Below the pieces are notes generated by a model. That model was not told where the DNA came from and made no database searches. It saw only the letters and a program-made list of their open reading frames with translations. This document shows, one piece after another, positions 7,861 through 63,239 of a stretch of DNA of 64,000 nt. This DNA is from Lacimicrobium alkaliphilum (lineage in GTDB: Bacteria; Pseudomonadota; Gammaproteobacteria; Enterobacterales; Alteromonadaceae): assembly GCF_001466725.1 (NCBI RefSeq), contig NZ_CP013650.1, positions 558,001 through 622,000 on the forward strand, given 5' to 3'. A program made the translations under genes and the position numbers. Position 1 is the stretch's first letter, and the number at the start of each line of letters is the position of its first letter.

Positions 7861-10083
7861 TTACTCTGTGCCGCTGATTATCTGTACCTGGGCAATATCG
7901 GTGTCACCTTTTAATATCTTGCAGATGCCGTCCTGAGTCAGGGTACGCATGCCATCTTTCATGGCCTGCTCCTTCATCAAAGCGACAGAAGATTCTTTGT
8001 ATACCAGTGCGCGAAGATCCGGGGTCATGGCTAACAGCTCATGGACGCCGGTACGACCCTTATAACCCGTATTCCCGCAGGCATCACAACCTTTACCCCG
8101 GTGTAGCATCAGGGGTTCACTGAGGTCGATTTCATCCAGATACTGCTCACCATACTGGCGCTTAATAAAGCCTATATCGGTCTCAGAGGCCTGATAGGTC
8201 TCTTTACAGTTTGGACACAGAGTACGTATCAGACGCTGAGCGAGAATGCCCACGCAGGCATCAGAGAAGTTGACCGGGTCCAGCCCCAAATCCAACAAAC
8301 GGGTGATGGTTTCAGGTGCAGAGTTGGTGTGCAGAGTGGACAGCACCAGGTGGCCGGTGAGCGAGGCCTCGATACCTGCATGGGCGGTTTCTTTGTCGCG
8401 CATCTCACCAATCAGGATGATATCCGGGTCAGCCCGCAAAAAAGCACGCAGGGCATTGGCAAAGGTAAAGCCGATTTTCGGGCTGACCTGCACCTGCTGC
8501 AAGCCGGCCTGAGTAATCTCTACCGGATCTTCGGCGGTCCAGATTTTTTTCTCCGGCGTGTTGAGATCTCCCAGTACTGCATGCAAGGTGGTGGTTTTAC
8601 CTGAACCTGTAGGACCTACTACCAGAATAATCCCATGGGGTTTCTTAATCATTTCCTTGATGGCTTTGTTATTACGGGGCGACAGATTAAGCTTCTCCAT
8701 TGGCATGGCGCCGCCGGTGGCCAGGATCCGCATCACCACCCCTTCACCTGCCACAGTGGGAATGGTGGCAACCCGCACTTCTACAATCTGACCAGACATC
8801 TTGACCGCCAGTTTTCCATCCTGAGGGACGCGTTTTTCGGCGATATTCAGATTTGCCATAATCTTAATTCTGGCCACTACAGCGTTGTGATGGGATGCCG
8901 GCACCTGGGTAATATCCCGGCACACGCCGTCGATTCGCATACGGACCCGGGTCGGACCGCTTTTTTCCGCGTCTACGTGAATATCAGAGGCATTAAGTTT
9001 CTTGGCATCATGCAGGATGCGGCTGACCAGGCGCACCACAGCGGGGGCATCGTCAGACATTTCCTCTGTCTGTTCTTCAAGATCATCACCGCTGGTACCG
9101 ATTTCATCGAGAATCTCATCCATATCGCCGGGCCCGCTGCCGCCCCCGGCGCTTTCACCAAGGTATTGCAACACGGTATTGGGCAAGGCCACACAGATAT
9201 CGTAACTGTTAATGCCTATGGCACTCTCTATTTCCATCAAAAGTGCGGCATTGTTGGGCTCGGCCATCAGGATGATAGGATTGTCCGAAACGTCTGCAAT
9301 AACCGCCACATAGTTGCGCTTGAGATAAGAGAGGTTGAGTCTGCTGTCACTCTGATACAGATGATACTTATCCGGCAGGTATCCCATAAAGGGGACCTGG
9401 TAGTGCACCGATAGCGCGTTACCAAGCTCTTCTTCGGCGATACGGTATTCTGTGGTCAGGCGTTGCGCCAGTTGCCGGGGGTCCCGGCAACTTTCCAGCA
9501 GCTGATCCAAATCTCCTGAGGAGATTAACTTTTTATGCACTAAATACTGAAAAGGCTTATTGGTGCCGCCAAGCTCATAGCGGAACTTGGTTCCCAGCAT
9601 AGTCGCGAGCTGATTCGCCAGATCCAGATCCTCGCTGATAAAGTCACCCCGTTGCTTATTGATTATCTGCATGACGCCGAGTAAGACGCCGGCATTCATC
9701 ACCGGCACACAGATAATATTTCGGGTTTTAAAGGAACTGGATTTATCAAATTTATCAGCAAACCTGAGGCGGGGGTGGATGGTGGCCAGCTCTTCCTTAT
9801 TATAAGGATCGGATATCAGCAAGGGTAACTGACTCAATGCCACGTAACCGGCGATAGATTGAGGGGTTATCGGAACCTTAATTTCCCGCACTTCTTTACC
9901 GGTCTTAAAACGGGCTACCAGATCCTGGTGCTGACGCCGTCGCTGGAAAATACTCATACGCTCGGCGGCGAACATATCCAGAATGATGGGTTCGAGCTTT
10001 TCGTAGGCGTCCATCAGCTCCTGATGGGTTTCCAGCAGTTGGTTGATTTGTTCCAGTTGCTGATCGGCTTTAGTGGTCATCAT
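7861..10083 (-). CDS. GspE/PulE/PilB-family secretion ATPase with N-terminal GAF domain
   Basis: Hexameric ATPase of the type II secretion or type IV pilus class. Residues about 25-170 resemble a GAF domain (VPITPQSIAGYVALSQLPLLI, NIICVPVMNAGVLLGVMQIIN). A middle GspE N-terminal-like domain follows, then the ATPase with Walker A GPTGSGKTT near 490, ILIGEMRDKETA as Walker B, THSAPETITRLLD-type histidine box and the zinc-binding CPNC and CDACG pairs. No other pilus or secretion genes lie nearby, so the machine it powers is not shown here. The start is uncertain: the double ATG at 10083/10080 is preferred, but neither it nor the ATG at 10143 has a clear ribosome site. Confidence 0.85.
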   Translation of the reverse strand: MMTTKADQQLEQINQLLETHQELMDAYEKLEPIILDMFAAERMSIFQRRRQHQDLVARFKTGKEVREIKVPITPQSIAGYVALSQLPLLISDPYNKEELATIHPRLRFADKFDKSSSFKTRNIICVPVMNAGVLLGVMQIINKQRGDFISEDLDLANQLATMLGTKFRYELGGTNKPFQYLVHKKLISSGDLDQLLESCRDPRQLAQRLTTEYRIAEEELGNALSVHYQVPFMGYLPDKYHLYQSDSRLNLSYLKRNYVAVIADVSDNPIILMAEPNNAALLMEIESAIGINSYDICVALPNTVLQYLGESAGGGSGPGDMDEILDEIGTSGDDLEEQTEEMSDDAPAVVRLVSRILHDAKKLNASDIHVDAEKSGPTRVRMRIDGVCRDITQVPASHHNAVVARIKIMANLNIAEKRVPQDGKLAVKMSGQIVEVRVATIPTVAGEGVVMRILATGGAMPMEKLNLSPRNNKAIKEMIKKPHGIILVVGPTGSGKTTTLHAVLGDLNTPEKKIWTAEDPVEITQAGLQQVQVSPKIGFTFANALRAFLRADPDIILIGEMRDKETAHAGIEASLTGHLVLSTLHTNSAPETITRLLDLGLDPVNFSDACVGILAQRLIRTLCPNCKETYQASETDIGFIKRQYGEQYLDEIDLSEPLMLHRGKGCDACGNTGYKGRTGVHELLAMTPDLRALVYKESSVALMKEQAMKDGMRTLTQDGICKILKGDTDIAQVQIISGTE

Positions 10084-10220
10084 ATAATTTGTGGTCTGTT
10101 CAACTTCTGTTCGCAAGAAACCATGGCACACGTAACTTTGCATGTTAGGTGGTTTCGGCGCCCAAGGCCAACATCATTCACCTATGTTGCCACAATCCAT
10201 GAGTTTTTTGCCATTGTGGC

Positions 10221-10248
10221 TTGCATAAAAAGCCGACATAGGTATAAT
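10221..10248 (+). promoter_or_regulatory. Sigma-70 promoter of the S10 operon
   Basis: TTGCAT (10221-10226), a 16-base spacer, then a perfect TATAAT (10243-10248). It lies about 160 bases before rpsJ on the same strand, leaving a long untranslated leader as known for S10 operons. Confidence 0.8.
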
Positions 10249-10310
10249 TCGCGTCCACTTGTCCTGACGGACATGCGTTTTTACTCTGGTAACAGGTAGA
10301 AATGAACTAC

Positions 10311-10721
<411 letters not shown>

Positions 10722-10739
10722 CAAGAGAGGGTTTAAACA

Positions 10740-11378
10740 ATGGCGATTGGTATAGTCGGTCGTAAAGTCGGTATGACCCGTATCTTCACTGAAGATGGCG
10801 TGTCTATTCCTGTGACTGTTATCGAAGCAACGCCTAACCGCGTGACTCAGCTCCGTACTGAGGAAATCGACGGTTATAAGGCGTTGCAGGTCACTGCAGG
10901 TACCAAGAAAGCTAACCGCGTCAACAAGGCCGAAGCTGGTCAGTTCGCAAAAGCCGGTGTCGAAGCCGGACGTGGTAAGTGGGAATTCCGCCTCAATGGT
11001 ACTGAAGGTGAAGGCATTGAAGTGGGCAGTGAAATCACTGTCGAAATCTTCGCTGAGAATGCCATGGTAGATGTAACGGGTACCTCTAAAGGTAAAGGTT
11101 TTGCCGGTGCGATCAAACGTTGGAACTTCAGTTCACAGCGTATGACACACGGTAACTCATTGTCTCACCGTGCGCCGGGTTCGATTGGTCAGAACCAATC
11201 TCCTGGTAAAGTTTTCAAAGGCAAGAAAATGGCCGGTCATATGGGCGCTGAGCGCGTGACGGTACAGTCTTTGGAAGTAGTACGTGTGGATGCTGAGAAC
11301 AACCTGCTGCTGGTCAGAGGTGCTGTTCCTGGTGCAACAGGTGGCGATGTAATCGTTAAGCCTGCGGTTAAAGCGTAA
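10740..11378 (+). CDS. rplC: 50S ribosomal protein L3
   Basis: One of the early-assembling large-subunit proteins, reaching to the peptidyl transferase centre. The 212-residue product has the typical opening [18 protein letters not shown] and the conserved [15 protein letters not shown] and [23 protein letters not shown] segments. The latter contains the glutamine (of GQNQSPG) that PrmB methylates in E. coli. The gene starts 18 bases after rpsJ, after AGAGAGG. Confidence 0.98.
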
Positions 11379-51784: not shown

Positions 51785-52876
51785 TTACAGGCTGAGCGCG
51801 CCGTCCCAGTCTTTGGGCAGCACCTGGCGGCGTAGCAGCTGGCACTGCTCAATATGGTGGTTCAGCAGAGTATCGCCGGGGCACAGATGGCTGGCTTCCA
51901 CAAAGCAGGCAATGGCCTCATCCCACTGGCGGGCACGGCGGTGGGCGATGCCTTTTTCTAACAGTGGGGCACAGGCCAGCTTCTGCTGTTTAATGTCATC
52001 GTTCTGATGGGCGATGATCTCGTAAATCTCCACCGGGTTTTTCTTGCCCTTGACCCGCACCCAGTCCATCAGACGATATTCGTATAACGCTCTGGCCTCT
52101 GCGGTATCCAGCAGTTGTGCGCTGACCAGAATATCCGCTTCATATTGCGGGGCCAGAGACTCCAGCCGGTAGGCGATATTAACGCTGTCACCAATAACGG
52201 TGGTGTCCATTCTGTCTTCAGAGCCGACAGTGCCGAGGATCACCGGGCCAAAGTGAATACCAATGCCAATATTGATCGGCGGGTAGCCTGAGTTGCTGCG
52301 ATGCTGATTGTACTGCATCACCGCTTTACGCAGCGCCAGTGCCGCTTTGATGCTGTCCCGCGCCTTGTCTTTATTGGTGCCACCAGGATGATCAAACAGC
52401 GCCATAATGGCATCGCCGATAAACTTGTCGATAAATCCGCCATTGGTATGAATCGGCTCATTCATGCGCATAAAGTAAGAGTTGAGAAAGTTCATCAGCT
52501 CCTGTGGTGACATGCGCTCCGAGAGGCCGGTAAAACCGCGGATATCACAAAACAGGATCGCCACTTCATCTTCGTCTGCCCGGCCCAGCTCCAGCGTATC
52601 CAGACCATGTTTGGCAAAATGCTCGGCAAACTGGCGCGGCACGAATTTTTCGAAGGTTTTGCTGATGCGTGCCGCCTGTTCATTATGCGGGGACTGGCCC
52701 ACAGAATAATCGGTCGGGGCCTGAAAAATGTGGGACTCCAGTTTTACCACCGGACGGCGATAGGCCACTCTGGCCTGGCGCAGCAGGCTGGCGAGGATCA
52801 CCACCAGTACCGCAAGAAAGACGCAGGTGGCAATCAGCAGCAGTGTCACAGGGTGGGAAAACAGCTCCGTCATCAT
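51785..52876 (-). CDS. Membrane-anchored class III adenylate/guanylate cyclase
   Basis: 363 residues: one N-terminal membrane helix (about 10-32), linker, catalytic domain (about 100-280), then a C-terminal TPR-like tail. Metal-binding aspartates are in ILFCDIRGFTGLSERM and IDKFIGDAIMALF. GDSVNIAYRLESLA holds the Asn and Arg of the transition-state set. The lysine in IDKFIGD fits an adenylate cyclase. Single gene, convergent with the pectin locus end. Confidence 0.9.
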   Translation of the reverse strand: MMTELFSHPVTLLLIATCVFLAVLVVILASLLRQARVAYRRPVVKLESHIFQAPTDYSVGQSPHNEQAARISKTFEKFVPRQFAEHFAKHGLDTLELGRADEDEVAILFCDIRGFTGLSERMSPQELMNFLNSYFMRMNEPIHTNGGFIDKFIGDAIMALFDHPGGTNKDKARDSIKAALALRKAVMQYNQHRSNSGYPPINIGIGIHFGPVILGTVGSEDRMDTTVIGDSVNIAYRLESLAPQYEADILVSAQLLDTAEARALYEYRLMDWVRVKGKKNPVEIYEIIAHQNDDIKQQKLACAPLLEKGIAHRRARQWDEAIACFVEASHLCPGDTLLNHHIEQCQLLRRQVLPKDWDGALSL

Positions 52877-52926
52877 GATTCAGGTCATACTCATACTGAG
52901 GCCCGACAATCCCTGTCGCTTAATCA

Positions 52927-54207
52927 TCACAGGCTCGCCAGCACTTTATCGGCGGCGCGCAGCGTTTGCTCAATGATCTCATCATCATGAGCGGCGGAGA
53001 CAAATCCGGCCTCATAAGAAGCGGGTGCCAGGTACACGCCCTCATTCAGCATGCCATGATAGAACGCATTAAACTGCTGTTGATTACAGTTAATCGCCTG
53101 CTGGTAATTGGTGACCCGCTCAACATCGGTAAAGAACAATCCGAACATACTGCCGGCATAGTTAATGCTCATCTCAATGCCGTGCTTGTCTGCCAGGGCT
53201 TTAAAGCCTTTGGCGAGCTTTTCGGTGCGTTCACTCAGCAACTCATACAGGCCGGGTTTTTGAATAGCAGTCAGGGAGGCGAGTCCCGCTGCCATAGCGA
53301 CCGGATTACCCGACAGAGTACCGGCCTGATACACCGGCCCGGATGGGGCAATATGGGACATTATTTCACGTTTGCCGCCAAAGGCACCAACGGGCATACC
53401 GCCGCCTATGACTTTACCCAGGCAGGTCAGATCGGGCTTGATGCCGTAATGGGCCTGGGCGCCGCCAAGGGCAACGCGAAAACCTGTCATCACCTCATCC
53501 AGGATCAGAACGGTGCCATATTCGTCACAGATATCCCGCAGCCCTTGTAAAAAGCCTTCTACGGGTGGAATACAGTTCATATTGCCGGCCACCGGCTCAA
53601 CGATAATACAGGCTATTTGTTCGCCCACCTCAGAAAACGCCTGGCGCACGGAGTCGAGATTATTGTATTCAACGGTCAGCGTGTGCTGCGCCACATCAGC
53701 AGGAATACCGGGGGAGCTGGGTACGCCCAATGTCAGTGCACCAGAGCCGGCTTTGACCAGCAGGGAGTCGGCATGGCCGTGATAGCAGCCTTCAAACTTA
53801 AGAATTTTATCCCGTCCGGTATAACCACGGGCCAGACGAATGGCACTCATGGTAGCTTCGGTGCCTGAGTTAACCATGCGCACCATATCCATCGAGGGCA
53901 CCAGCTTGCTGACCAGTTCGGCAATATGAATTTCGGCCTCGGTGGGGGCGCCAAAACTCAGACCTTTTTCTACCGCCGCCAGCACCGCCTTTTTGATATC
54001 CGGATGATTGTGGCCCAGCACCATGGGGCCCCAGGACTGTACATAGTCGATATAGCGCTTGCCATCGGCATCAAACAGATAAGGGCCGTCGGCCTTGTCG
54101 ATAAACACCGGCGTACCGCCGACAGCTTTAAACGCCCGTACCGGCGAATTCACACCGCCGGGAATATGTTGTTGTGCCCGTTCAAACAATTCTATGGATT
54201 TTTGCAT
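52927..54207 (-). CDS. hemL: Glutamate-1-semialdehyde 2,1-aminomutase
   Basis: PLP enzyme of the C5 haem pathway that makes 5-aminolevulinate. 426 residues, family length. Motifs: [47 protein letters not shown] and the PLP lysine in [19 protein letters not shown]. Full length and ordinary in every respect. Confidence 0.96.
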
Positions 54208-54243
54208 AATACCTTCGTCATTGCGGTGAACCTGCTTACAGGC

Positions 54244-55260
54244 TCACAGATTTTGTTTACTGCTGTACCACTGCACATCGCAGTCGTACTTTTCGACGAT
54301 CTCTTCCACCCCAAGGGTTAGCGCAAACAGGGCCATTCGGATCAGCACACCGTTATCAACCTGACGAAAAATCGCCAGATTCGGATTCAGGTTGAGATCG
54401 TTATCCAGTTCATTGGCATCGGCCCGCGAGTCTCTGGGCAGAGGGTGCATGATCACGGTTTTAGACTGAAAATGCCGGGTGTAGATATCCTGATTCAGGC
54501 GAAAACGGCCCCGGTACTTGTTGGCTTCCAGTTGTGACTCAAAGCGTTCTTCCTGGATGCGGGTCTGATAGCAGATATCCGCATCCATACTGCCTTCCAG
54601 TTGTTCCGTGACTTTAAAGGAATGGCCCGCTGCCGCGATGAGCTCCAGTATCGAATCAGGCATGGCAAGTTCTTTGGGAGAGATCAGCGTAAAGCGGATA
54701 TTTTTATACAGGCTCAACAGCTTCGACAGTGAATGCACAGTACGGCCATGTTTAAGGTCGCCAATCATGGCAATGTGCATGCCGTCGATACTGTGACCAT
54801 GAAACTGTAGTTCTTTACTGATGGTGTACAGATCCAGCAGTGCCTGAGTGGGATGCTCATTGGCACCGTCACCGCCGTTGATGACTGGTACCCGGCTGCC
54901 TTCGGCAAACTCGGCTACCGAGCCGGCATCGGGGTGACGCATGGCGACGATATCAGAATAGCTCGACAGTACCCTGGCCGTGTCGTAAAGGGATTCGCCT
55001 TTGGATAAGGCTGAGGTGGCCATACCGGCAGTTTCCCGTACCTCACCACCGAGCAGGTTAAAGGCGGTGCCAAAGCTTACCCTGGTACGGGTACTGGCTT
55101 CGAAAAACAGATTACCCAGTATCGCGCCATCCAGCACTTTGGTTCGTTTCAGGCGATGGGCATAGGGGCGCATTCTGTCTGCCACCGCAAAAATCTCGGC
55201 AATGCTGTCGGGATCGAACTGGCTGACGGAGAGAATATGCTGACCTCTGAACTGATTCAT
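54244..55260 (-). CDS. pyrB: Aspartate carbamoyltransferase
   Basis: Second step of pyrimidine synthesis, joining carbamoyl phosphate to aspartate. 338 residues. The carbamoyl-phosphate signature reads FFEASTRTRVSFGTAF, followed by GESLYDTARVLSSYSDIVAMRHP and NGGDGANEHPTQALLDLYTI; HPLPR is HPLPRDSRADAN. This is the longer single-chain type; no pyrI follows it. ATG 55260 gives the standard N-terminus. Confidence 0.93.
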   Translation of the reverse strand: MNQFRGQHILSVSQFDPDSIAEIFAVADRMRPYAHRLKRTKVLDGAILGNLFFEASTRTRVSFGTAFNLLGGEVRETAGMATSALSKGESLYDTARVLSSYSDIVAMRHPDAGSVAEFAEGSRVPVINGGDGANEHPTQALLDLYTISKELQFHGHSIDGMHIAMIGDLKHGRTVHSLSKLLSLYKNIRFTLISPKELAMPDSILELIAAAGHSFKVTEQLEGSMDADICYQTRIQEERFESQLEANKYRGRFRLNQDIYTRHFQSKTVIMHPLPRDSRADANELDNDLNLNPNLAIFRQVDNGVLIRMALFALTLGVEEIVEKYDCDVQWYSSKQNL

Positions 55261-55490
55261 TAACTGGCAACCTGTTGGACGGCAAAAGTGCGGCAATTTT
55301 AGCAAGGCTTAGGGGTTATACCAATCACTGATTGTGCGGATAAATTGTTATGATAGGTATTAACTTACATTCCTTATAATGGTTTGCCATGCCAGCAGAT
55401 ACTGGCCTGCAGTCCGGGGCTGGTTTAACTTTAATCAGACACCGGCAGGAACTTCCACCGGTGCATGTCAGAATCAAGAGGATTAAGGTT

Positions 55491-56195
55491 ATGATTATTC
55501 TGGTTGGTGGTGAAAAAGGCGGCAGTGGAAAAAGTTGTCTGGCACAGAATATCGCTGTTTACCTGCGTACCGAGCGCAACGCGTCGGTATTGATGGTGGA
55601 TTGCGATCCGCAACGTACCACGTCTGACTGGATTCAGGAGCGGAATAATAACAACAAAGAACTGCCCAATATCAATTGTGTTCAGTTATACGGCAAAATA
55701 CGCAATGAGCTGTTGAGCCTCAGAAATCATTATGATTATGTGGTGATTGACTGCGGGGGGCAGGACAATCTGGCCCTGCGCTCTTCCATGGCGGTGGCCG
55801 ACCATATACTGATCCCGCTGCGCCCCAAACGTCGTGATCTGAAAACCGTGCCGCATATGGAAGACATTGTCTCCACCTGCAAGATGGTCAACCCGAAAAT
55901 GAATGTGGCATTTCTGATTACCCAGTGCCCGTCGTTACCCTCGCTGGCGCCGCGCATTATTGAAGCCAAAGAAGTTTGTCGTTCCTTTGAGATCCCGGTG
56001 CTGAACTCGGTTACCTTCAGCCGCAATATGTATGATGACAGTGAAGAGCTGGGGCTATCGGTGATGGAAAATGAACCTCAGGGCAAAGCTGCCAATGAGA
56101 TCCGCGCCATAGTTGATGAGTTGTTCGCCCGAGCCAAAGGAGAGAAGCATGACCTTCGCCAGTTTGAAGAAAAGCTCGCCGTCGGCCAGTCCTGA
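55491..56195 (+). CDS. ParA-family ATPase (deviant Walker A)
   Basis: 234 residues. The deviant Walker A KGGSGKS at about 9-15 with both lysines places it in the ParA/MinD group; VLMVDCDPQRTTSDW is motif A' and YVVIDCGGQDNLALR the Walker B part. It lacks a separate N-terminal DNA-binding domain, so it is a short (type Ib-like) ParA. ATG 55491 follows AGGATTAAGG. It overlaps by 47 bases with a small ribbon-helix-helix gene, its probable partner. Such orphan pairs position plasmids, chromosomes or protein clusters; the cargo here is unknown. Confidence 0.85.
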   Translation: MIILVGGEKGGSGKSCLAQNIAVYLRTERNASVLMVDCDPQRTTSDWIQERNNNNKELPNINCVQLYGKIRNELLSLRNHYDYVVIDCGGQDNLALRSSMAVADHILIPLRPKRRDLKTVPHMEDIVSTCKMVNPKMNVAFLITQCPSLPSLAPRIIEAKEVCRSFEIPVLNSVTFSRNMYDDSEELGLSVMENEPQGKAANEIRAIVDELFARAKGEKHDLRQFEEKLAVGQS

Positions 56196-56472
56196 GGCAA
56201 TCAGTGTCGATGAATTTATCGAAGACGCGGAAAACTATGCCCGCGGGCTGAACAAGATCGTTCGCCTGCATCCTTCAGTGGCGGCAACTGAAGAAGGGCA
56301 TTGTGAACCTTTAAGAACCACCAGCGTGACACTCACCAAAGAGGCCAGGGAGAAACTCGACCTGTTGGCCTCAGCAACAGGCGTTTCCCGCTCCAGGCTG
56401 GTGCGCATCTGGTTAGCCGGTGTCGAAGTCGAGCTGGAAAAAGCGCTCTACCTGGCCAGCCAGGTTCGTTAA
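56149..56472 (+). CDS. Small ribbon-helix-helix-type partner of ParA
   Basis: 107 residues, not a named family that I recognise. The C-terminal half (about 55-90) has the pattern of a ribbon-helix-helix: a strand TTSVTLTKEAREKLDLL, then helix SATGVSRSRLVRIWLAG. The N-terminal half is polar and probably flexible. A strong AAGGAGAG site precedes ATG 56149 inside the ParA gene, so the two are co-translated. By analogy with ParG/Omega-type proteins it may be the centromere-binding or ParA-stimulating partner. Confidence 0.6.
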   Translation: MTFASLKKSSPSASPEAISVDEFIEDAENYARGLNKIVRLHPSVAATEEGHCEPLRTTSVTLTKEAREKLDLLASATGVSRSRLVRIWLAGVEVELEKALYLASQVR

Positions 56473-56480
56473 AAGTGTAG

Positions 56481-56498
56481 GGTCGACTTCAGTCGACC
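56481..56498. repeat. REP-like palindrome, copy A
   Basis: GGTCGACT-TC-AGTCGACC, a perfect 8-base inverted repeat preceded by GTAG. Two related copies occur at about 58855 and 63244. Confidence 0.65.
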
Positions 56499-56677
56499 GT
56501 TCTTTCAGACGCTCGCAAAATACTATTTAAATCCCTTATCGAGTAATGTCCGTTGTCTTCGCAGCTATTTAAAGCTCTTCCTGGTATCGCGTATCATCAG
56601 CCCACATCACTCAGAGCTTAGAGATTTCTGATAATAAACTGCTAAGCTCAATTACCCATTCAAAAAAGAGCAAAGCA

Positions 56678-57295
56678 ATGCGTATCATCGGCGCAGGCGT
56701 AGGACGTACAGGAACTTATTCACTTAAACTGGCAATCAATGAGCTTGGCCTCGGCCCCTGCCATCATATGGAAGAAGTGCTACATAATATGGATTTGCAG
56801 GTACCCCTTTGGAAGGATGCATTGCGTGGAGAGGCAGACTGGTCTGCCATCTACGCCAATTACAACAGTGCGGTTGACTGGCCAACGGCAGGGTATTTCC
56901 GCGAACTCTATGATGCATTCCCCGATGCCAGATTTATCTTAACTCACCGCGATCCAGAGAGCTGGGCAAGTAGTTTTGGCTCCACCATTTATACGCTGTT
57001 GAGCACCAGAGGTGATGCGCCTCAGGAAATGCGTGACTGGCTGGATATGTGCGCTGGCGTGATTGAAAAAACCGGCTTTCCCTCCGGCCTTGAACATCAA
57101 CAACTAAAGGACGCCTTTATCGCTCACAATGAAGCGGTTAAAGCGACCATTCCGGCCAGGCAATTATTGGTCTTTGAGGTAAAAGAAGGCTGGCAACCGC
57201 TCTGCGATTTTCTTGAACTGCCCGTGCCTGATAAACCTTTTCCAAGAACCAATCACCGACAGGAATTCTGGGACAGGGTATCGGGTAAGATTTAA
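56678..57295 (+). CDS. Sulfotransferase-family protein
   Basis: 205 residues. The N-terminal RIIGAGVGRTGTYSLKLAINELG is the PAPS 5'-phosphosulfate-binding loop of the Sulfotransfer_4-like family, and the middle RFILTHRDPESWASSF holds the 3'-phosphate-binding Arg and Ser. Family members may transfer sulfate, or have lost that role; the acceptor is unknown. Stands alone. Confidence 0.82.
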   Translation: MRIIGAGVGRTGTYSLKLAINELGLGPCHHMEEVLHNMDLQVPLWKDALRGEADWSAIYANYNSAVDWPTAGYFRELYDAFPDARFILTHRDPESWASSFGSTIYTLLSTRGDAPQEMRDWLDMCAGVIEKTGFPSGLEHQQLKDAFIAHNEAVKATIPARQLLVFEVKEGWQPLCDFLELPVPDKPFPRTNHRQEFWDRVSGKI

Positions 57296-57469
57296 AAGTT
57301 GGTTAATCCGGTTGGTATCAGTCACCGTCGGGTATCTGAAGGGTTGATCGGTTCTGGCAACAGAAGATCACAATAGCGTTTGCACTGCGCAAACTCACCC
57401 GTTGCAGTGTTTTGATTCGAGGCTTTTAATACGCGATTTACCCTGTTATCGCGCTTATCAGGTGGGAAG

Positions 57470-58690
57470 TCACATAAAGGATATGACTATTCCGCCCAGT
57501 AACCATGCAAACGCGAGCAGAGTGAACACAGAAAGAACCTTATCGGTAAGGGATGTACTGTCTTGGTGATCATGATCACACTGAGCTTGCTTCGCCCGGT
57601 ACCACAACCAAACCAGAACACAATTAATGGTAAACAGAATGGCATTCAGAACTGACTGATAGTTGAGTTTGAAAAATTCGCGATCACCGGGTGCCGTCAC
57701 GGCGGTAAAGTCAGGCAGCAAACCCAAAAAAGCAAGACTGTAATGCATCACAAGGGCGGCGATGACGATCGCTACTAACATCAGGGCCAACAGGTACAGA
57801 GCCATTTTCCAGCCATAATATTTCGCGTTAATACGCAGTACCGGCAGCACCACAAGATCCGAAAAGATAAACGCCATGACGCCGGCAAAGGTTACTCCCT
57901 GCCCAAACAAAACAGCCGCCAGTGGAATATTTCCCATTGAGCCAATAAAGGTGAAAAATGCCGCTATTGGCCCAATCAGTGTCTGGGCCAGAACTTCGGG
58001 AAAACCTGGGTTGGCAGCATTCTCACCCGCAGAACCAACAAACAAGGTCTGGAAAAAGCTCTGTGGAACCATAGCGGAAATAATACCGGCCACAGTGAAA
58101 CCAATCAGCACATCTCTCCATACCATCTGCCATTCCATGACGTAGGTTTGCCCGATCTTTTCCCAGGATTGCATGCTGGCAAGCCGGGTTTTCCAGTGCA
58201 TCTGACTATTTTCGTCCTCGTCTTGTTCGTCATTCTGTTGCTGGCGGGCCTGAGCTATCAAGCGTTTTGGTCGTGTGATCCGAATAAGAGCCCAGGTAAT
58301 CAGAATCAAAATAATACCGCCGACATATTCTCCGACTACAAATTGCCAACCCAGAAAAATTGCGATCACCATCCCAAGCTCAATAACGAGATTAGTTGAT
58401 GCCAGCATAAAGGCCATTGAGGGGGCCAGACCTGCCCCTTTGTTGAATATAGCGCGAGTAGTGGATAACGCGGAGAAACTACAGGAGCTTGAAATGAAGC
58501 CGAAAAAGGTACCGAGGAGCATGCTTCGAGGGCCATCTTTGCCCATTGCCTGTTGCATACGGGAGCGTGTGATAAACACCTGAATCAGGCTGCTGACGAG
58601 ATAACCCAGTATAAAGGCCCACAGGGCCATCCAGAAAAATCCTATACTGGTTATTGCCGCTTCACTCCATAGTTGAAGAAAGTTTTCCAC
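57470..58690 (-). CDS. YraQ-type permease (DUF318)
   Basis: 406 residues with eight or more membrane segments in two halves. Family motifs: LGTFFGFISSSCSFSALSTTRAIFNKGAG with the SCSFS core, and GSMGNIPLAAVLFGQGVTFAGVMAFIFSDLVVLP in the second half. Some relatives export organoarsenicals (ArsP); most are uncharacterised. A large charged loop (about 145-175) separates the halves. Confidence 0.85.
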   Translation of the reverse strand: MENFLQLWSEAAITSIGFFWMALWAFILGYLVSSLIQVFITRSRMQQAMGKDGPRSMLLGTFFGFISSSCSFSALSTTRAIFNKGAGLAPSMAFMLASTNLVIELGMVIAIFLGWQFVVGEYVGGIILILITWALIRITRPKRLIAQARQQQNDEQDEDENSQMHWKTRLASMQSWEKIGQTYVMEWQMVWRDVLIGFTVAGIISAMVPQSFFQTLFVGSAGENAANPGFPEVLAQTLIGPIAAFFTFIGSMGNIPLAAVLFGQGVTFAGVMAFIFSDLVVLPVLRINAKYYGWKMALYLLALMLVAIVIAALVMHYSLAFLGLLPDFTAVTAPGDREFFKLNYQSVLNAILFTINCVLVWLWYRAKQAQCDHDHQDSTSLTDKVLSVFTLLAFAWLLGGIVISFM

Positions 58691-58877: not shown

Positions 58878-58940
58878 TTTTGTTTTTGGCTCTATTGATT
58901 GCATATCGAGAAAAAAGGGCGGCTATGTGCCAGAAGCGGA

Positions 58941-59000
58941 CGTTAACGCTTGCAGCAAGGACGCGAAGTCAGGAGCGTCCCTTGCTTGCAATTGTTAGGG
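58941..59000 (-). other. Integron attC site 1 (left edge of cassette cluster)
   Basis: Two arms pair over 15 bases: TTGCA-GCAAGG-ACGC (58950-58964) with GCGT-CC(C)TTGC(T)TGCAA (58975-58991). C58981 and T58986 stay unpaired, i.e. two extrahelical bases on one side, as in attC hairpins. After two-base spacers, TAAC (58944-58947) pairs with GTTA (58994-58997) as the R boxes. On the minus strand the site opens CCTAACAATT and closes CAAGCGTTA, like classical attC sites. The R boxes deviate at their outer bases (CCCTAAC, GTTAACG). The ptuB stop codon lies in the loop. Confidence 0.75.
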
Positions 59001-59601
59001 TTTGTAACGCATGAAGTAGTCGCTCTTTATCTGAGTCATCTGCATTTCTAATATCTTCAACTAGTTTTTGTATCGGGTTTTGATTAGCATTCAACGCTTT
59101 TTTCTTTTTTACCACTTCTTTCAATCGATATATCTTGCATTGCTTGATAGTTTCGCAACCCTTGTCATTCAACCCTTCATATATTACATCGTCATGTATA
59201 GCTATGCAGGAAAAGTAATCGTCAAAGTGTGGGTGAATGATGATCAGATTAGTTCCACTTCGTGGGTATCGTTTGATAGGCTTAGCTAAAACATTTTTTT
59301 TGCCTTTAGATGTGTTGCAACCGGGGCAGGAAAGAGCCAGATTCTTAGCGTGGAAAGTGAATTGAGAATATTGACACTTAGGTATAACATGCTCTATATC
59401 AACCGCCTTAATATCAAACCCTAGCTCTGTCCTACAATAACAACATCTATTGTCTTGCTTAGGTCTTAGGTAATCAATAATTTTGGTCTTGATATTATCA
59501 AAAGCGGACTTTTCCCAATCACTATGCGATTGAAAATGCCTATCTACTATCTTTGTCTCATCACTTGAAAGCTCATAAGGCTCACTAATTCGTGAATACA
59601 T
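58969..59601 (-). CDS. ptuB: HNH endonuclease, PtuB-like (Septu)
   Basis: 210 residues. The HNH core (about 45-110) has CCYCRTELGFDIKAVDIEHVIPK with zinc cysteines and the catalytic His, then NLALSCPGCNTSKGKKN with the second cysteine pair and Asn. The pairing of such a nuclease with an AAA ATPase upstream, three bases away, is the layout of the Septu anti-phage system (ptuA-ptuB) and of the effector module of some retrons. No reverse transcriptase is near. Its last residues (LTIASKGRS) are encoded inside the attC site, as often in cassette genes. Confidence 0.75.
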   Translation of the reverse strand: MYSRISEPYELSSDETKIVDRHFQSHSDWEKSAFDNIKTKIIDYLRPKQDNRCCYCRTELGFDIKAVDIEHVIPKCQYSQFTFHAKNLALSCPGCNTSKGKKNVLAKPIKRYPRSGTNLIIIHPHFDDYFSCIAIHDDVIYEGLNDKGCETIKQCKIYRLKEVVKKKKALNANQNPIQKLVEDIRNADDSDKERLLHALQTLTIASKGRS

Positions 59602-59604
59602 TTC

Positions 59605-61128
59605 CTATATACCCAATTTCAACAATGCTTTGATGACATCTTTTAGAGGATCTACGTTTTTTAGATTAGGTAGGTATTTTTCAAAGGCACCTATTAACTC
59701 TTGATATCTGTCACTGTTTATTTTCCCTTCTGCTACGAGCTCCAAAGCTTCAGAGATATTCTTGGACAAGTAATAATTTCTGGTTGAAGGCATGTCAAAA
59801 ACATTTAACAATACATCTTCTGCAGATAAACCATTGGTTTCCTCTTCTATATATTCAACATCAATTTCTGATTTCTTTCCCTCTCTGAAATGAACAATAT
59901 GTGATCGCCCCAATGGCAAATCTGAAATCAAGAAATGAGAGTGAGTTGCTATAACCACATGACAGCCAGTTTTTTGGCTAATTAATCTATCAATTAGTTC
60001 TACATATTTATACTGCCAAGAAGGATGTAAGCTAATTTCTGGCTCATCAATAACAATCAGCGAATCGTTATCTAGATTAGGAATCAACGCAATAAGAGTT
60101 GACAAAATGCTTGCTTCACCGGAGCTGGCATCTGAAAAGTCAAATTCGCCACCGTCTTTTTTAAACAAATTTATCGATGGACCTCGAACTAAATCAAACT
60201 TTCGCAAATCTTCCAAAAAGGAGTAAAGCTCTTCATGAAACAAAACTATCTCGGTGTTTTCTCGTTTTTCATTTTGGGCCGAGAAATTAACTACAAACGA
60301 AAACTGTAATCTCTTTTCAGGACGGCTAGCTTTACCAAGAATATAGTTATAAGCATTGGCTATATCTTCCCAGTACTGGTCAGGACGACTCTCTAATTCT
60401 CTTCGGAACATATCTGCTCTCATTCCACCCCTTCGATCAGACAACTCCTCAAGATGCCTTTTGAAAACAGCTCCTGACACTATCCCATCCTGCTCTTGAA
60501 AGTATCTTGGCCTGCTAATTTCGTATGATAACTTAACGATTGGCTCATATTTCAAATAGTCAAAAATGTGCCTATAACTTCTGTTGTGAATCTGTTCTCC
60601 AACACTAGCAATTAGTGTCGTCATTGCCCTATCCATTAGAGCTCTACTTGACGCCCGTCCAGGCGTACTTCTTGGCCCTAGATATGTATAGCATTCCCGT
60701 TTGTAGTCAATGGATTCTCTTTTTTTTAGGTAGTCGCGCCTATTGAAATTGTCGCTTGAGAACTTGTCAGATAAACTTGTTGTAACAGCAATAATCTTCG
60801 AAGGGATGTCTAAGCCATTTCCCGCGAAAAGTTCTTTTTTTGTATTTCTGTCAAGAGCTTTTTTGCCATGCTTTTTCTCTATCCGAAAGTGTTCATTATT
60901 TATGACGTAACTCAGGCAGTAATCAACTTTCATCCTTCTTCTATTTTCACCAGCATCTCGGAAAGCCTCCACTAGGCTGGATATATATCGACTCTTGCCG
61001 GTACCGTTGTTTCCTATGATGACAGTAAAATAATTATCGTCACGATTCACACATTTCTTAGATAAATAGACGTTCGGTGTTGTAAGGTTTTCACCTTCGA
61101 CTGAAAAGTTGGAAATTCGAAAAGTCAT
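59605..61128 (-). CDS. ptuA: AAA/ABC-type ATPase, PtuA-like (Septu)
   Basis: 507 residues, SMC/ABC-like ATPase with the nucleotide-binding halves at both ends: Walker A VIIGNNGTGKSRY near 40, signature SSGEASILSTLIALIP near 340, Walker B LIVIDEPEISLHPSWQ near 365 and H-loop VIATHSHF near 397. The middle is helical. PtuA proteins regulate the HNH partner; when phage infection disturbs ATP binding the nuclease acts. The start ATG 61128 has no clear ribosome site, which is common just after a cassette junction. Base use is visibly more A+T-rich than the surrounding genes. Confidence 0.78.
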   Translation of the reverse strand: MTFRISNFSVEGENLTTPNVYLSKKCVNRDDNYFTVIIGNNGTGKSRYISSLVEAFRDAGENRRRMKVDYCLSYVINNEHFRIEKKHGKKALDRNTKKELFAGNGLDIPSKIIAVTTSLSDKFSSDNFNRRDYLKKRESIDYKRECYTYLGPRSTPGRASSRALMDRAMTTLIASVGEQIHNRSYRHIFDYLKYEPIVKLSYEISRPRYFQEQDGIVSGAVFKRHLEELSDRRGGMRADMFRRELESRPDQYWEDIANAYNYILGKASRPEKRLQFSFVVNFSAQNEKRENTEIVLFHEELYSFLEDLRKFDLVRGPSINLFKKDGGEFDFSDASSGEASILSTLIALIPNLDNDSLIVIDEPEISLHPSWQYKYVELIDRLISQKTGCHVVIATHSHFLISDLPLGRSHIVHFREGKKSEIDVEYIEEETNGLSAEDVLLNVFDMPSTRNYYLSKNISEALELVAEGKINSDRYQELIGAFEKYLPNLKNVDPLKDVIKALLKLGI

Positions 61129-61162
61129 TGTATAGCCTAATTTACTCGAATCTATCTGCGGA

Positions 61163-61210
61163 TTCTAACGCCGCCATCAAGCGGTTGTCGCGTGCATGGT
61201 TTTGTTAAAT
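61163..61210 (-). other. Integron attC site 2
   Basis: Minus-strand R'' box ATTTAAC (61210-61204) and R' box GTTAGAA (61169-61163) enclose a hairpin: CCAT-CA-A-GCG (61174-61183) pairs with CGC-G-TG-(C)-ATGG (61189-61199), loop GTTGT. C61195 is extrahelical. R'' fits RYYYAAC exactly; R' fits GTTRRRY except the last base. At 48 bases it is shorter than most attC sites. It covers the end of the nuclease gene (residues about KTMHATTA). Confidence 0.65.
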
Positions 61211-61662
61211 GATTGCTGGATAACTTCTCGGCCGTCCTCGTCAACCTCCCATATTTCTACATCTTCTGGGATTAGGTGGCCATACGTTCGGACATAGTAT
61301 TCCGCCAAAGTTTCTCGCCGTCTTTCACTTACATTTCTAAGAACAAACAGAATCTTCCTGTATCCTCTGGGCGCGACCAAGAAGTAGTACATTGCCTCAT
61401 TCCACACAGTGAGCTTTGCACTCGGAACATTATCATTAGGTGCGGTCCACTTGTGGCACTTACATTCGACGATGATTTTCTGCTCTTTACAGCCAAGATC
61501 GAAAGCATGCAACTTCTTGTTTTCCGCCACACCAACGGGAAGCTTAAGGTCGCTCTCAAGATGAATGCCTTTCGATGCAAACACACCTAGAGCGATAGCC
61601 TCAAAGTCTTTTCCCACGTGGGCGTTTGATATAGACCCAATGCGCTGGTGTGGCTTATTCAT
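61177..61662 (-). CDS. PD-(D/E)XK-type nuclease domain protein
   Basis: 161 residues; family not named with certainty. The active-site pattern is visible: Asp in KLHAFDLGC (about 75), then KIIVECKCHKW (Glu-x-Lys, about 86-90), preceded by a helix with Glu (HVGKDFEAIALGVF). That is the restriction-endonuclease-like fold used by Mrr, NERD-like and VSR-type proteins. Its start lies 13 bases after an R' box (GTTAAAT, 61681-61675) and its end is inside attC site 2, so it is one complete gene cassette. Likely defence-related by context. Confidence 0.6.
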   Translation of the reverse strand: MNKPHQRIGSISNAHVGKDFEAIALGVFASKGIHLESDLKLPVGVAENKKLHAFDLGCKEQKIIVECKCHKWTAPNDNVPSAKLTVWNEAMYYFLVAPRGYRKILFVLRNVSERRRETLAEYYVRTYGHLIPEDVEIWEVDEDGREVIQQSFNKTMHATTA

Positions 61663-61674
61663 GTGCTTGTGTCC

Positions 61675-61779
61675 ATTTAACAGTTTATTATGCCAATCTT
61701 ACAAGGTCGCGTTCCTTGCTAGCTAGATTACCTTGTATGGTTGGAAAGTCCAATGTCCGCTTCTCGCTTTGAGTTAAAC
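61675..61779 (-). other. Candidate attC site 3 (degenerate)
   Basis: R''-like GTTTAAC (61779-61773) starts three bases from the DUF4238 stop and R' GTTAAAT (61681-61675) ends 12 bases before the nuclease start; both fit the R-box consensus exactly. Between them CCAAC-A-TACAAGGT pairs with ACCTTGTA-A-GATTGG. The hairpin is off-centre (28 against 11 bases to the boxes), so this may be a decayed or composite site. Confidence 0.4.
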
Positions 61780-61781
61780 TC

Positions 61782-62789
61782 TTACATTCTGGGCTTTTTC
61801 GATCTTTCCCTACAGAGTCTCTTTACCTCTTTCAACTGAGATTCTGTTTGCGCAAATAAATGCTCTTCCGCCCTCGCGGCCATCTCAACATTAAATACCA
61901 AGGCTTCGTCCCTGGTAATAGATACTTTACCGGAAGGATAGCGATCAGAGTTATTAATCATATATGCATATTTTGGAGATAACGGATAGAAGGCGTCCAT
62001 ATATTGGGGAGCTTGTCCCTCGGGTATCTTTTTCATTGACTCGTGAACATTTATTATTGGATTATCAGATGTTATGAACGGTTGAGATGTCTCATTTATA
62101 AGCAACACTTGTTTATCATCATGCTGGGTTGCTGTCAGATTAGCCCCTATGTTCATTCCGAACATGTAGCTAAGAAACCACCAGTTTTTTTCCATTAGTT
62201 GACTGTACGTCTCGAATGAAAATGGAGGGTTGGGATGTCGCTCAAACGATTCTCTATCAACAGCAAAACTCATGGCCTTCTTCTTGAATGACTTTGTCCG
62301 TGTCATCTGCATTGCAAAGAACTGTTTAAACTTGACTCTGCTTTCTGATGTCTCAAATACCGAAATGTCGCCTCTGTTAAGACACGCTAGGATTTCAATT
62401 ACATCGGTTTCATGAGAACCATGAAGATTTTCCAAAACATTATATTGGAAGGCTTCTAGTCTCTGTTTGATGTGCTCTGGGGGTTGCATAGTCTCTGCAA
62501 GTTTTGCTGCTCGAGATGCAATGCAGAAGTCGTTCAAATAGCCATTATGAATCTGACGAAGTTCATCTGGGCTTTTAGATGAGAAATTTCTTATGAAACG
62601 AACATCCTCATCATTCAAAAAATTTATTTTATAGAAGTCTCTTTCAGCAGCGAGTCCATAAACGCTATCACAACGATAATTTCCTTTTTTCGTCGTGTAC
62701 CAAACATTCAGATCATCTAATGACCAATGCTTTAGGTAATGCGCCCAAATATGATGATGTTTGCGCTTTAGTTGGAATTTCTTATCCAA
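61782..62789 (-). CDS. DUF4238 protein
   Basis: 335 residues, cytoplasmic, function unknown. It shows the DUF4238 features: N-terminal HHHIWAHYLKHWSLDD, and PFITSDNPIINVHES plus DAFYPLSPKYAYMI in the C-terminal half. Such genes are frequent in defence islands but no mechanism is established. Start is TTG 62789 with AAGGG seven bases upstream, at ten bases from an R'-like box (GTTAAAG); a TTG six codons earlier has worse spacing. A+T-rich like its neighbours. Confidence 0.7.
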   Translation of the reverse strand: MDKKFQLKRKHHHIWAHYLKHWSLDDLNVWYTTKKGNYRCDSVYGLAAERDFYKINFLNDEDVRFIRNFSSKSPDELRQIHNGYLNDFCIASRAAKLAETMQPPEHIKQRLEAFQYNVLENLHGSHETDVIEILACLNRGDISVFETSESRVKFKQFFAMQMTRTKSFKKKAMSFAVDRESFERHPNPPFSFETYSQLMEKNWWFLSYMFGMNIGANLTATQHDDKQVLLINETSQPFITSDNPIINVHESMKKIPEGQAPQYMDAFYPLSPKYAYMINNSDRYPSGKVSITRDEALVFNVEMAARAEEHLFAQTESQLKEVKRLCRERSKKPRM

Positions 62790-62798
62790 ATGATATCC

Positions 62799-62862
62799 CT
62801 TTAACAATCACCTTAACCATAGTTACCAGGCTGCCTCAACTCTATAAATGGCAGTATTAAAG
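62799..62862 (-). other. Candidate attC site 4 (degenerate), right edge of cassette cluster
   Basis: R'-like GTTAAAG (62805-62799) and a mirror CTTTAAT (62862-62856) lie 64 bases apart, a normal attC size; inside, CTGCC and GGCAG pair. The rest of the stem is poor. Listed because R' stands just before the DUF4238 start, as expected of a cassette junction. Confidence 0.3.
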
Positions 62863-62924
62863 CTAATAATCATCTCTTTCTAAGAATTGTTGATTATATG
62901 GCTATGCCACAAAAGCAACCGGCC

Positions 62925-62951
62925 AATGTCCGCTCATCGCTCATTTCTGCC
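62925..62951. repeat. Dispersed repeat AATGTCCGCTCATCGC, copy 1
   Basis: 27 bases that recur with about three changes and a 2-base gap at 63311-63335. Shorter relatives with AATGTCCGCT lie at 61752-61767 and, reversed, at 58932-58944. Copies 1 and 2 bracket the decayed HemJ-like gene. Confidence 0.6.
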
Positions 62952-62997: not shown

Positions 62998-63239
62998 TCA
63001 GCAACCAGCATCAAAACCCGGCTTAAGTACCGCCAGCAACACCACGGCTAGTAATACCAGCACCGGGGCTTCGTCAAGAATACGGTAGAATTTTGGGAGT
63101 GGCGGTTACTGTCGGCGGCAAAGTCCTTTATCAGCCGGTAAAGATAGAAATGATAGCCGTAGAGCAGGGCAAAAGGGGTCACAAACCACCGAAGGCACCG
63201 CCCCATTATCTTAAAGGTATCGCGGGTGCCCCGGAACAA
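62998..63239 (-). pseudogene. HemJ/CopD-family remnant, truncated and frameshifted
   Basis: The first frame reads MGRCLRWFVTPFALLYGYHFYLYRLIKDFAADSNRHS in short pieces; then a one-base loss in an A run moves to a second frame reading FYRILDEAPVLVLLAVV and LKPGF before a stop at 62998. FYR..(N/D)E.PVL..LA(I/V)V and the final KP-F are the C-terminal hallmark of HemJ/CopD-type membrane proteins (protoporphyrinogen oxidase-like). The N-terminal half is missing. The rest of the gap 62790-63479 holds only repeats and the next promoter. Confidence 0.55.

Follow-up and report, generated by a model that had tools for sequence, protein, structure and literature searches.

We analyzed a window of 64,000 nucleotides (nt) from Lacimicrobium alkaliphilum (C1:558001-622000 in a one-contig genome of 4.38 Mb). 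Near its right end, the minus strand carries, read from right to left, a DUF4238 gene, a gene for a 161-amino-acid (161-aa) protein, ptuA, ptuB and then an ArsP-like permease gene (Table 1). We report that the 161-aa gene and the ptuA-ptuB pair very probably form two integron cassettes, each ending in an attC site, and that ptuA-ptuB encodes a predicted anti-phage system of the Septu type. An earlier note on this DNA, made from the sequence alone, had described four genes on one strand in an A+T-richer block, with gene starts shortly after R' boxes. Open reading frame (ORF) coordinates and GC values agreed with this description: the DUF4238 gene has 39.2% GC and the whole window 51.3%, to be compared with the cassette values in Table 1, and the cassette start codons lie 12 and 34 nt past the R' boxes.

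Table 1. Features of the cassette locus (window coordinates).
Feature	Position	Strand	Basis
DUF4238 gene, neighbor of the cassettes, without attC after the gene	61782..62807	-	PF14022, 78.1 bits
Imperfect palindrome, a stem-loop; attC by neither model	61690..61754	.	Fold test
R'-like half-site GTTAAAT, upstream border of cassette 1	61675..61681	-	Sequence; no attC match around it
Cassette 1, 512 nt, 47.1% GC	61169..61680	-	Crossover points
161-aa PD-(D/E)XK nuclease-like protein (FDLG...ECK), C-terminal tail attC-encoded	61177..61662	-	
attC of cassette 1, 48 nt, very short loop	61163..61210	-	R1 41.3 bits, R2 38.8 bits
Cassette 2, two genes, 2222 nt, 37.9% GC	58947..61168	-	Crossover points
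ptuA, ABC-type ATPase of Septu, 507 aa	59605..61128	-	PADLOC PDLC00265, 572.5 bits
ptuB, HNH nuclease of Septu, 210 aa, attC-encoded tail	58969..59601	-	PADLOC PDLC00345, 219.3 bits; alignment
attC of cassette 2, 60 nt	58941..59000	-	R1 19.6 bits, R2 24.8 bits
ArsP-like permease gene, downstream of the cassettes	57470..58690	-	PF03773, 207.1 bits

We built a covariance model (R1) from 12 attC sites of the resident cassette array of this genome (75-84 kb), with trimmed arms and no site from the window. These 12 sites covaried in the structure used (0.404 versus 0.168 when shuffled, 0/500). R1 matched both palindromes at the cassette ends. A second model (R2), built from 56 sites that include neither those of the window nor those of a cluster at 2.40 Mb (locus L068), was run over 1.975 Mb including the window and gave seven matches at E ≤ 10: the two window sites, four in L068 and one in L141. 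As a background, R1 was run over 100 stretches from other parts of the genome (1.998 Mb in total) and gave one match at E ≤ 10, also in L141. This lone match (L141:15946-16024, genome ~2.39 Mb; R1 18.8 bits, R2 31.8 bits) lies 9 kb from the Argonaute cluster described below. In the R1 whole-genome search, in which 150 of 1167 candidates were scored, the cassette 1 site ranked second of the 12 matches listed; this listing contained 4 of the 12 resident-array sites.

Alignments of both window sites showed R''/R' boxes, spacers, L''/L' arms, an extrahelical base and a CGTT crossover. About ten codons at the 3' end of the 161-aa gene and of ptuB are each encoded by attC. At the cassette 2 site, window 58940-58997 shared 81% identity over 59 nt with an attC of the 2.40 Mb cluster, and the fold of this site (58941-59000) on the plus strand had z = −3.72. 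By two models trained without the window, both palindromes are attC sites. The earlier note had read them this way from their R boxes, spacers and extrahelical bases, and had correctly placed each over the 3' end of the preceding gene.

The same note had seen a palindrome after each transcription unit and had inferred three cassettes in total. The covariance check that it proposed for 58.94, 61.16 and 61.68 kb, run here with our own models, matched the first two positions, and neither R1 nor R2 matched at 61.68 kb. The palindrome at 61.68 kb is a stem-loop (z = −2.37; z = −1.06 for the whole stretch 61676-61778). By eye, its R-like boxes are not flanked by complementary L''/L' arms, and GTT is preceded by T instead of C. 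We rejected a third attC at this position because it was unmatched by both models and had no complementary L arms by eye. The DUF4238 gene was not followed by an attC according to R1 or R2, and its product had no PADLOC match. With only two attC sites and none after DUF4238, the count of three cassettes did not hold. The R'-like half-site GTTAAAT at the upstream border is consistent with a first cassette having been inserted outside any attC.

The crossover points (G|TT at 61681/61680, 61169/61168 and 58947/58946) delimit two cassettes, and both attC sites lie on the minus strand. No integron integrase was found at the locus. In the whole genome, one of six matches to the integrase family exceeded the cut-off (TIGR02249, 454.9 bits against 265; C1:84271-85218, no internal stop). 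This full-length integrase (IntI) adjoins the resident array and lies 534 kb from the window cassettes. The look-up of intI elsewhere in the genome, suggested earlier, thus recovered both a full-length IntI and its array, and the description as integrase-less is right for the locus and wrong for the genome. These data support the earlier assignment to the class of clusters of attC sites lacking integron integrases (CALINs). We conclude with high confidence that 58947-61680 (minus strand) is a CALIN of two cassettes in the same orientation, each ending in attC, in a variable chromosomal spot.

We next consider what the cassettes encode. The ptuA (ATPase) and ptuB (HNH) ORFs of cassette 2 are adjacent, 3 nt apart, and Walker and HNH motifs were seen in their products by eye. 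Both proteins matched PADLOC Septu models, in line with the earlier mention of a Septu-like system with attC sites in a chromosomal setting. On these sequence features, we identify cassette 2 as a complete stand-alone Septu (ptuA-ptuB). The NCBIfam cut-offs for PtuA and PtuB of retron Ec78 were not reached (70 bits of 500 and 38.4 of 150). No RNA family, and hence no retron RNA, was matched by Rfam in the window at gathering scores, and no search was aimed at reverse-transcriptase families. Septu EcB88 of Escherichia coli, likewise an ABC ATPase with an adjacent HNH nuclease, is described as requiring its Walker and HNH motifs and as cutting tRNA-Tyr during infection (PMC13096335). By analogy with studied Septu systems, the complex would sense infection and PtuB would then cut (tRNA in the E. 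coli B88 system). Compared with known Septu, the proteins encoded here fall under the retron Ec78 cut-offs and are distant in sequence from relatives of solved structure, with partial matches only and, for PtuB, none at E ≤ 0.01.

The closest relatives of PtuA listed besides its own entry had 75-77% identity; three of these come from contigs <5 kb and another from a contig of 435 kb. A Marinobacter persicus protein (62% identity) was among the matches listed. Among 40 relatives, PtuA had eight matches at E ≤ 0.001 including its own, the best other at 32% over residues 307-504, and among 369 genomes of the class only its own genome matched at E ≤ 1e-20. On plasmids, three records matched at E ≤ 1e-30, all <60% identity. 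Six PtuB relatives were aligned (74-93% identity in the alignment). Four of them end much as PtuB does (LTSVGKGRS, LTLAGKGRS, LTMAGKGRS and LTMAGMGRP; own LTIASKGRS), and the other two end in LTR and LTNQ. Because four relatives share a C-terminal end of the attC-encoded type, the alignment hints that attC travels with ptuB; the alternative is a conserved protein end.

Cassette 1 encodes a protein whose fold and D-E-K signature are those of the PD-(D/E)XK group, and we identify it on this basis as nuclease-like. It had no PADLOC, Pfam or NCBIfam family match. The suggestion that all cassettes are plausibly anti-phage was thus supported for Septu and was not supported for this family-less protein or for DUF4238. 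A relative with 66% identity in genome G161 has an attC directly upstream (R1 25.4 bits) and, by eye, an attC-like hairpin directly downstream. Two plasmid records matched the 161-aa protein, both <60%. For the relative on a Methylobacter plasmid (L078), a search with filters off found no attC beside the gene and one 18.1-bit match far off; this search mode lost two of the three L077 attC sites found otherwise. One scan of genome contigs yielded a single relative at 37%.

We also scanned the locus for promoters. The scan gave five matches on both strands, compared to 11.5 in shuffles; one of them, a weak one, falls within the attC that precedes ptuA. No convincing promoter emerged from it, and for this reason expression of the cassette genes probably depends on read-through from upstream. 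Short GTCCGCT-type repeats surround the cassette block and the DUF4238 gene (window 58931-58946, 61749-61766, 62923-62941 and 63313). We considered them as a target motif near the cassette borders and rejected them: the 10-mer AATGTCCGCT occurs 10 times in the genome and its reversed control 8 times, which is no over-representation.

attC sites were also found at five further places far from intI, three of them with at least two sites. The search covered about half of the genome stretch by stretch and the rest only through the genome-wide listing. Three sites lie at 2.306 Mb (L067), three at 1.913 Mb (L070) and three by R1 or four by R2 at 2.40 Mb (L068); L069 and L071 have one clear attC each, and L072 gave a weak match (18.5 bits). 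A 636-bp segment of the resident array (L007:9359-9994) is 96.2% identical to one in the 2.306 Mb cluster (L067:8692-9327) and ends at the R' points of both, as expected of a whole cassette that moved or was copied between the two; we read it as such. Inside the resident array, beside an attC, we observed a 414-aa ORF on the opposite strand that looked by eye like an IS110-like transposase (L007:6939-8183).

Two of the dispersed clusters carry defense genes. At 1.913 Mb (L070:4500-7131, genome ~1.9125-1.9151 Mb; three attC), an AbiU/AIPR gene (557 aa, 678 bits) sits as a cassette between two sites. The 2.40 Mb cluster (L068:3933-12554, genome ~2.399-2.4076 Mb) contains an Argonaute (pAgo_II, 958 bits) and its partner, an Aga helical nuclease (452 bits). 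A GTTAGAC half-site precedes the two genes, and the attC that follows them has an altered R' box; this pair is probably a cassette. Genes for 420-aa and 349-aa proteins without a Pfam or PADLOC match follow Argonaute/Aga between the same two attC sites. PADLOC matches were seen for 5 of the 19 proteins scanned at or beside dispersed sites (window 2/4 including DUF4238; 3/10; 0/5) and, in or next to the resident array, for 1 of 15 (a weak helix-turn-helix match, 20.5 bits). These counts cover only the ORFs scanned, and it was for its defense genes that the window had been selected; we claim no enrichment of defense genes off the array.

In both congeners, too, some attC sites lie outside the intI arrays, several of them at the ends of contigs. 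In one of them (G002), an OLD-like ATPase/TOPRIM gene (90 bits) lies between two attC sites and adjoins a Schlafen AlbA_2 protein (L180:7422-9182 and 9255-11084). R1 gave 65 attC matches, of which 30 belong to the three intI arrays found in the genus, 32 to other places in the genus and 3 to G161. Very short sites (46-50 nt) made up none of the 30 in intI arrays and 8 of the 32 off arrays (P = 0.003, one-sided Fisher test). Excluding loci that lie on short contigs or at the ends of contigs left 19 off-array sites, 4 of them short (P = 0.018). The short sites include window 61163-61210 and L070:7082-7131, with others in L179, L180, L181 and L182. Since the sites are non-independent, the 50-nt cut was chosen after seeing the list and R1 is length-biased, we treat the tie between short attC sites and places off intI arrays only as a lead.

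We compared the chromosomal spot with the two congeners. Both keep the block to the left (window 51795-57297) and hemJ-clcA at the right. Between the left block and intact hemJ, nothing was matched in either congener apart from a hemJ remnant; one congener has ~1.05 kb in this gap, and the second has ~5.2 kb that holds other genes. The remnant (window 63004-63233) is a degraded, rearranged partial copy of hemJ, whose intact copy lies at genome 625154-625579, and it shows a further insertion or duplication at this spot.

Several observations weigh against reading the locus as two cassettes inserted at this spot. Both congeners lack the entire 57.3-67.1 kb stretch, and the cassettes may thus have come with or after the rest of it, possibly inside a larger island. 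The ArsP gene was unmatched in both congeners, nor did we find an unoccupied copy of this target; for these reasons the insertion step is one that we infer. At the sequence level, the cassette 2 attC was close to the R1 detection limit (E = 0.093 for 184 kb) and was absent from the matches listed genome-wide. The cassette 1 attC folded no better than shuffles (z = −1.37 on the plus strand, 20/200 as good; z = −0.44 on the minus strand), and no attC was found at the relative of the cassette 1 gene in G293. R1 recovered 9 of its own 12 sites and missed the three longest (105-112 nt), so a long-looped site could be missed, although the 61.68 kb stretch also has no complementary L arms by eye.

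The account we favor, to which we give about an even chance, is that the cassettes were inserted at a non-attC (attG-like) GTT site by an IntI, most probably that of the resident integron working in trans, and that they are still excisable. By the predicted activity of IntI, the first cassette would have entered through GTTAAAT, a lone half-site of the kind that remains where a first cassette enters a non-attC site. The second would have entered at the attC of the first, or together with it. Both would remain excisable where IntI cuts the folded bottom strand. A tentative alternative is that the cassettes are passengers of a larger island (57.3-67.1 kb) integrated between a sulfotransferase gene and hemJ, with the resident IntI uninvolved. 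The lack of any congener match between window 57297 and intact hemJ, the remnant apart, is what such an island would leave, and the remnant itself records other events at the spot. However, no integrase or transposase was noticed by eye among the ORFs there, where no family search of each was made, and the CALIN carries its own crossover borders.

CALINs have also been proposed to be degraded integrons (PMC9024848), in which case a local intI would once have stood here and since been lost. We consider this improbable: the whole-genome search for IntI found nothing near the locus, an R'-like half-site stands alone at the upstream border, and attC sites occur at the five further places in this genome, three with at least two sites, and off intI arrays in both congeners. 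The palindromes could, at the extreme, be terminators or other stem-loops that resemble attC, within an ordinary defense island. The poor fold of the cassette 1 site and the stem-loop at 61.68 kb, which is just such a structure, speak for this. Against it, two models trained without the window matched both sites and almost nothing else in ~2 Mb, no T run follows either site, and a terminator scan listed neither. We regard this explanation as very unlikely.

Insertion by the resident IntI could be part of a wider process. It is possible, though doubtful, that the IntI of this genus acts as a genome-wide distributor, exporting cassettes, including two-gene defense systems, from the resident array or from incoming circles. 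Cassettes would then be parked at scattered non-attC sites as small defense CALINs, such as Septu here and Argonaute-Aga at 2.40 Mb. If this were true, cassettes would be stored across the chromosome and not in the array alone. Defense cassettes outside the integrase-bearing array may also escape the position-dependent silence of large arrays. With its full-length IntI, its resident array and its dispersed attC sites, this genome offers a test bed for whether IntI spreads cassettes naturally to non-attC sites.

Parts of this arrangement have counterparts in known systems. In Xanthomonas, CALINs away from the intI locus are reported for about half of the genomes (PMC12444791). As at our locus, those away from ilvD/intI have at least two attC sites, no adjacent intI and an intI elsewhere in the genome (PMC12444791, PMC9024848), whereas here one CALIN carries a two-gene Septu cassette and other attC places carry AbiU and, probably as a cassette, Argonaute/Aga. 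Recombination of attC x attG, by which cassettes enter genomes (Loot 2024, cited in PMC12444791), would account for a first cassette at a GTT site other than an attC, as we infer here. Anti-phage cassettes have been described in sedentary chromosomal and in mobile integrons (Darracq 2025, Kieffer 2025 and Getz 2025, as told in PMC12409362), and the same account describes integron defense cassettes as streamlined systems, none of more than two genes. Defense genes travel as cassettes in both settings; compared with the integrons of that account, those found here lie away from intI. Among the titles and abstract starts listed from the open-license literature, with most subscription papers outside this scope, we found no Septu or Argonaute integron cassette. 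CALINs and defense cassettes are thus both already known. The two-gene Septu cassette of this CALIN belongs with both kinds and adds a complete two-gene defense system to the cargo seen on integron cassettes.

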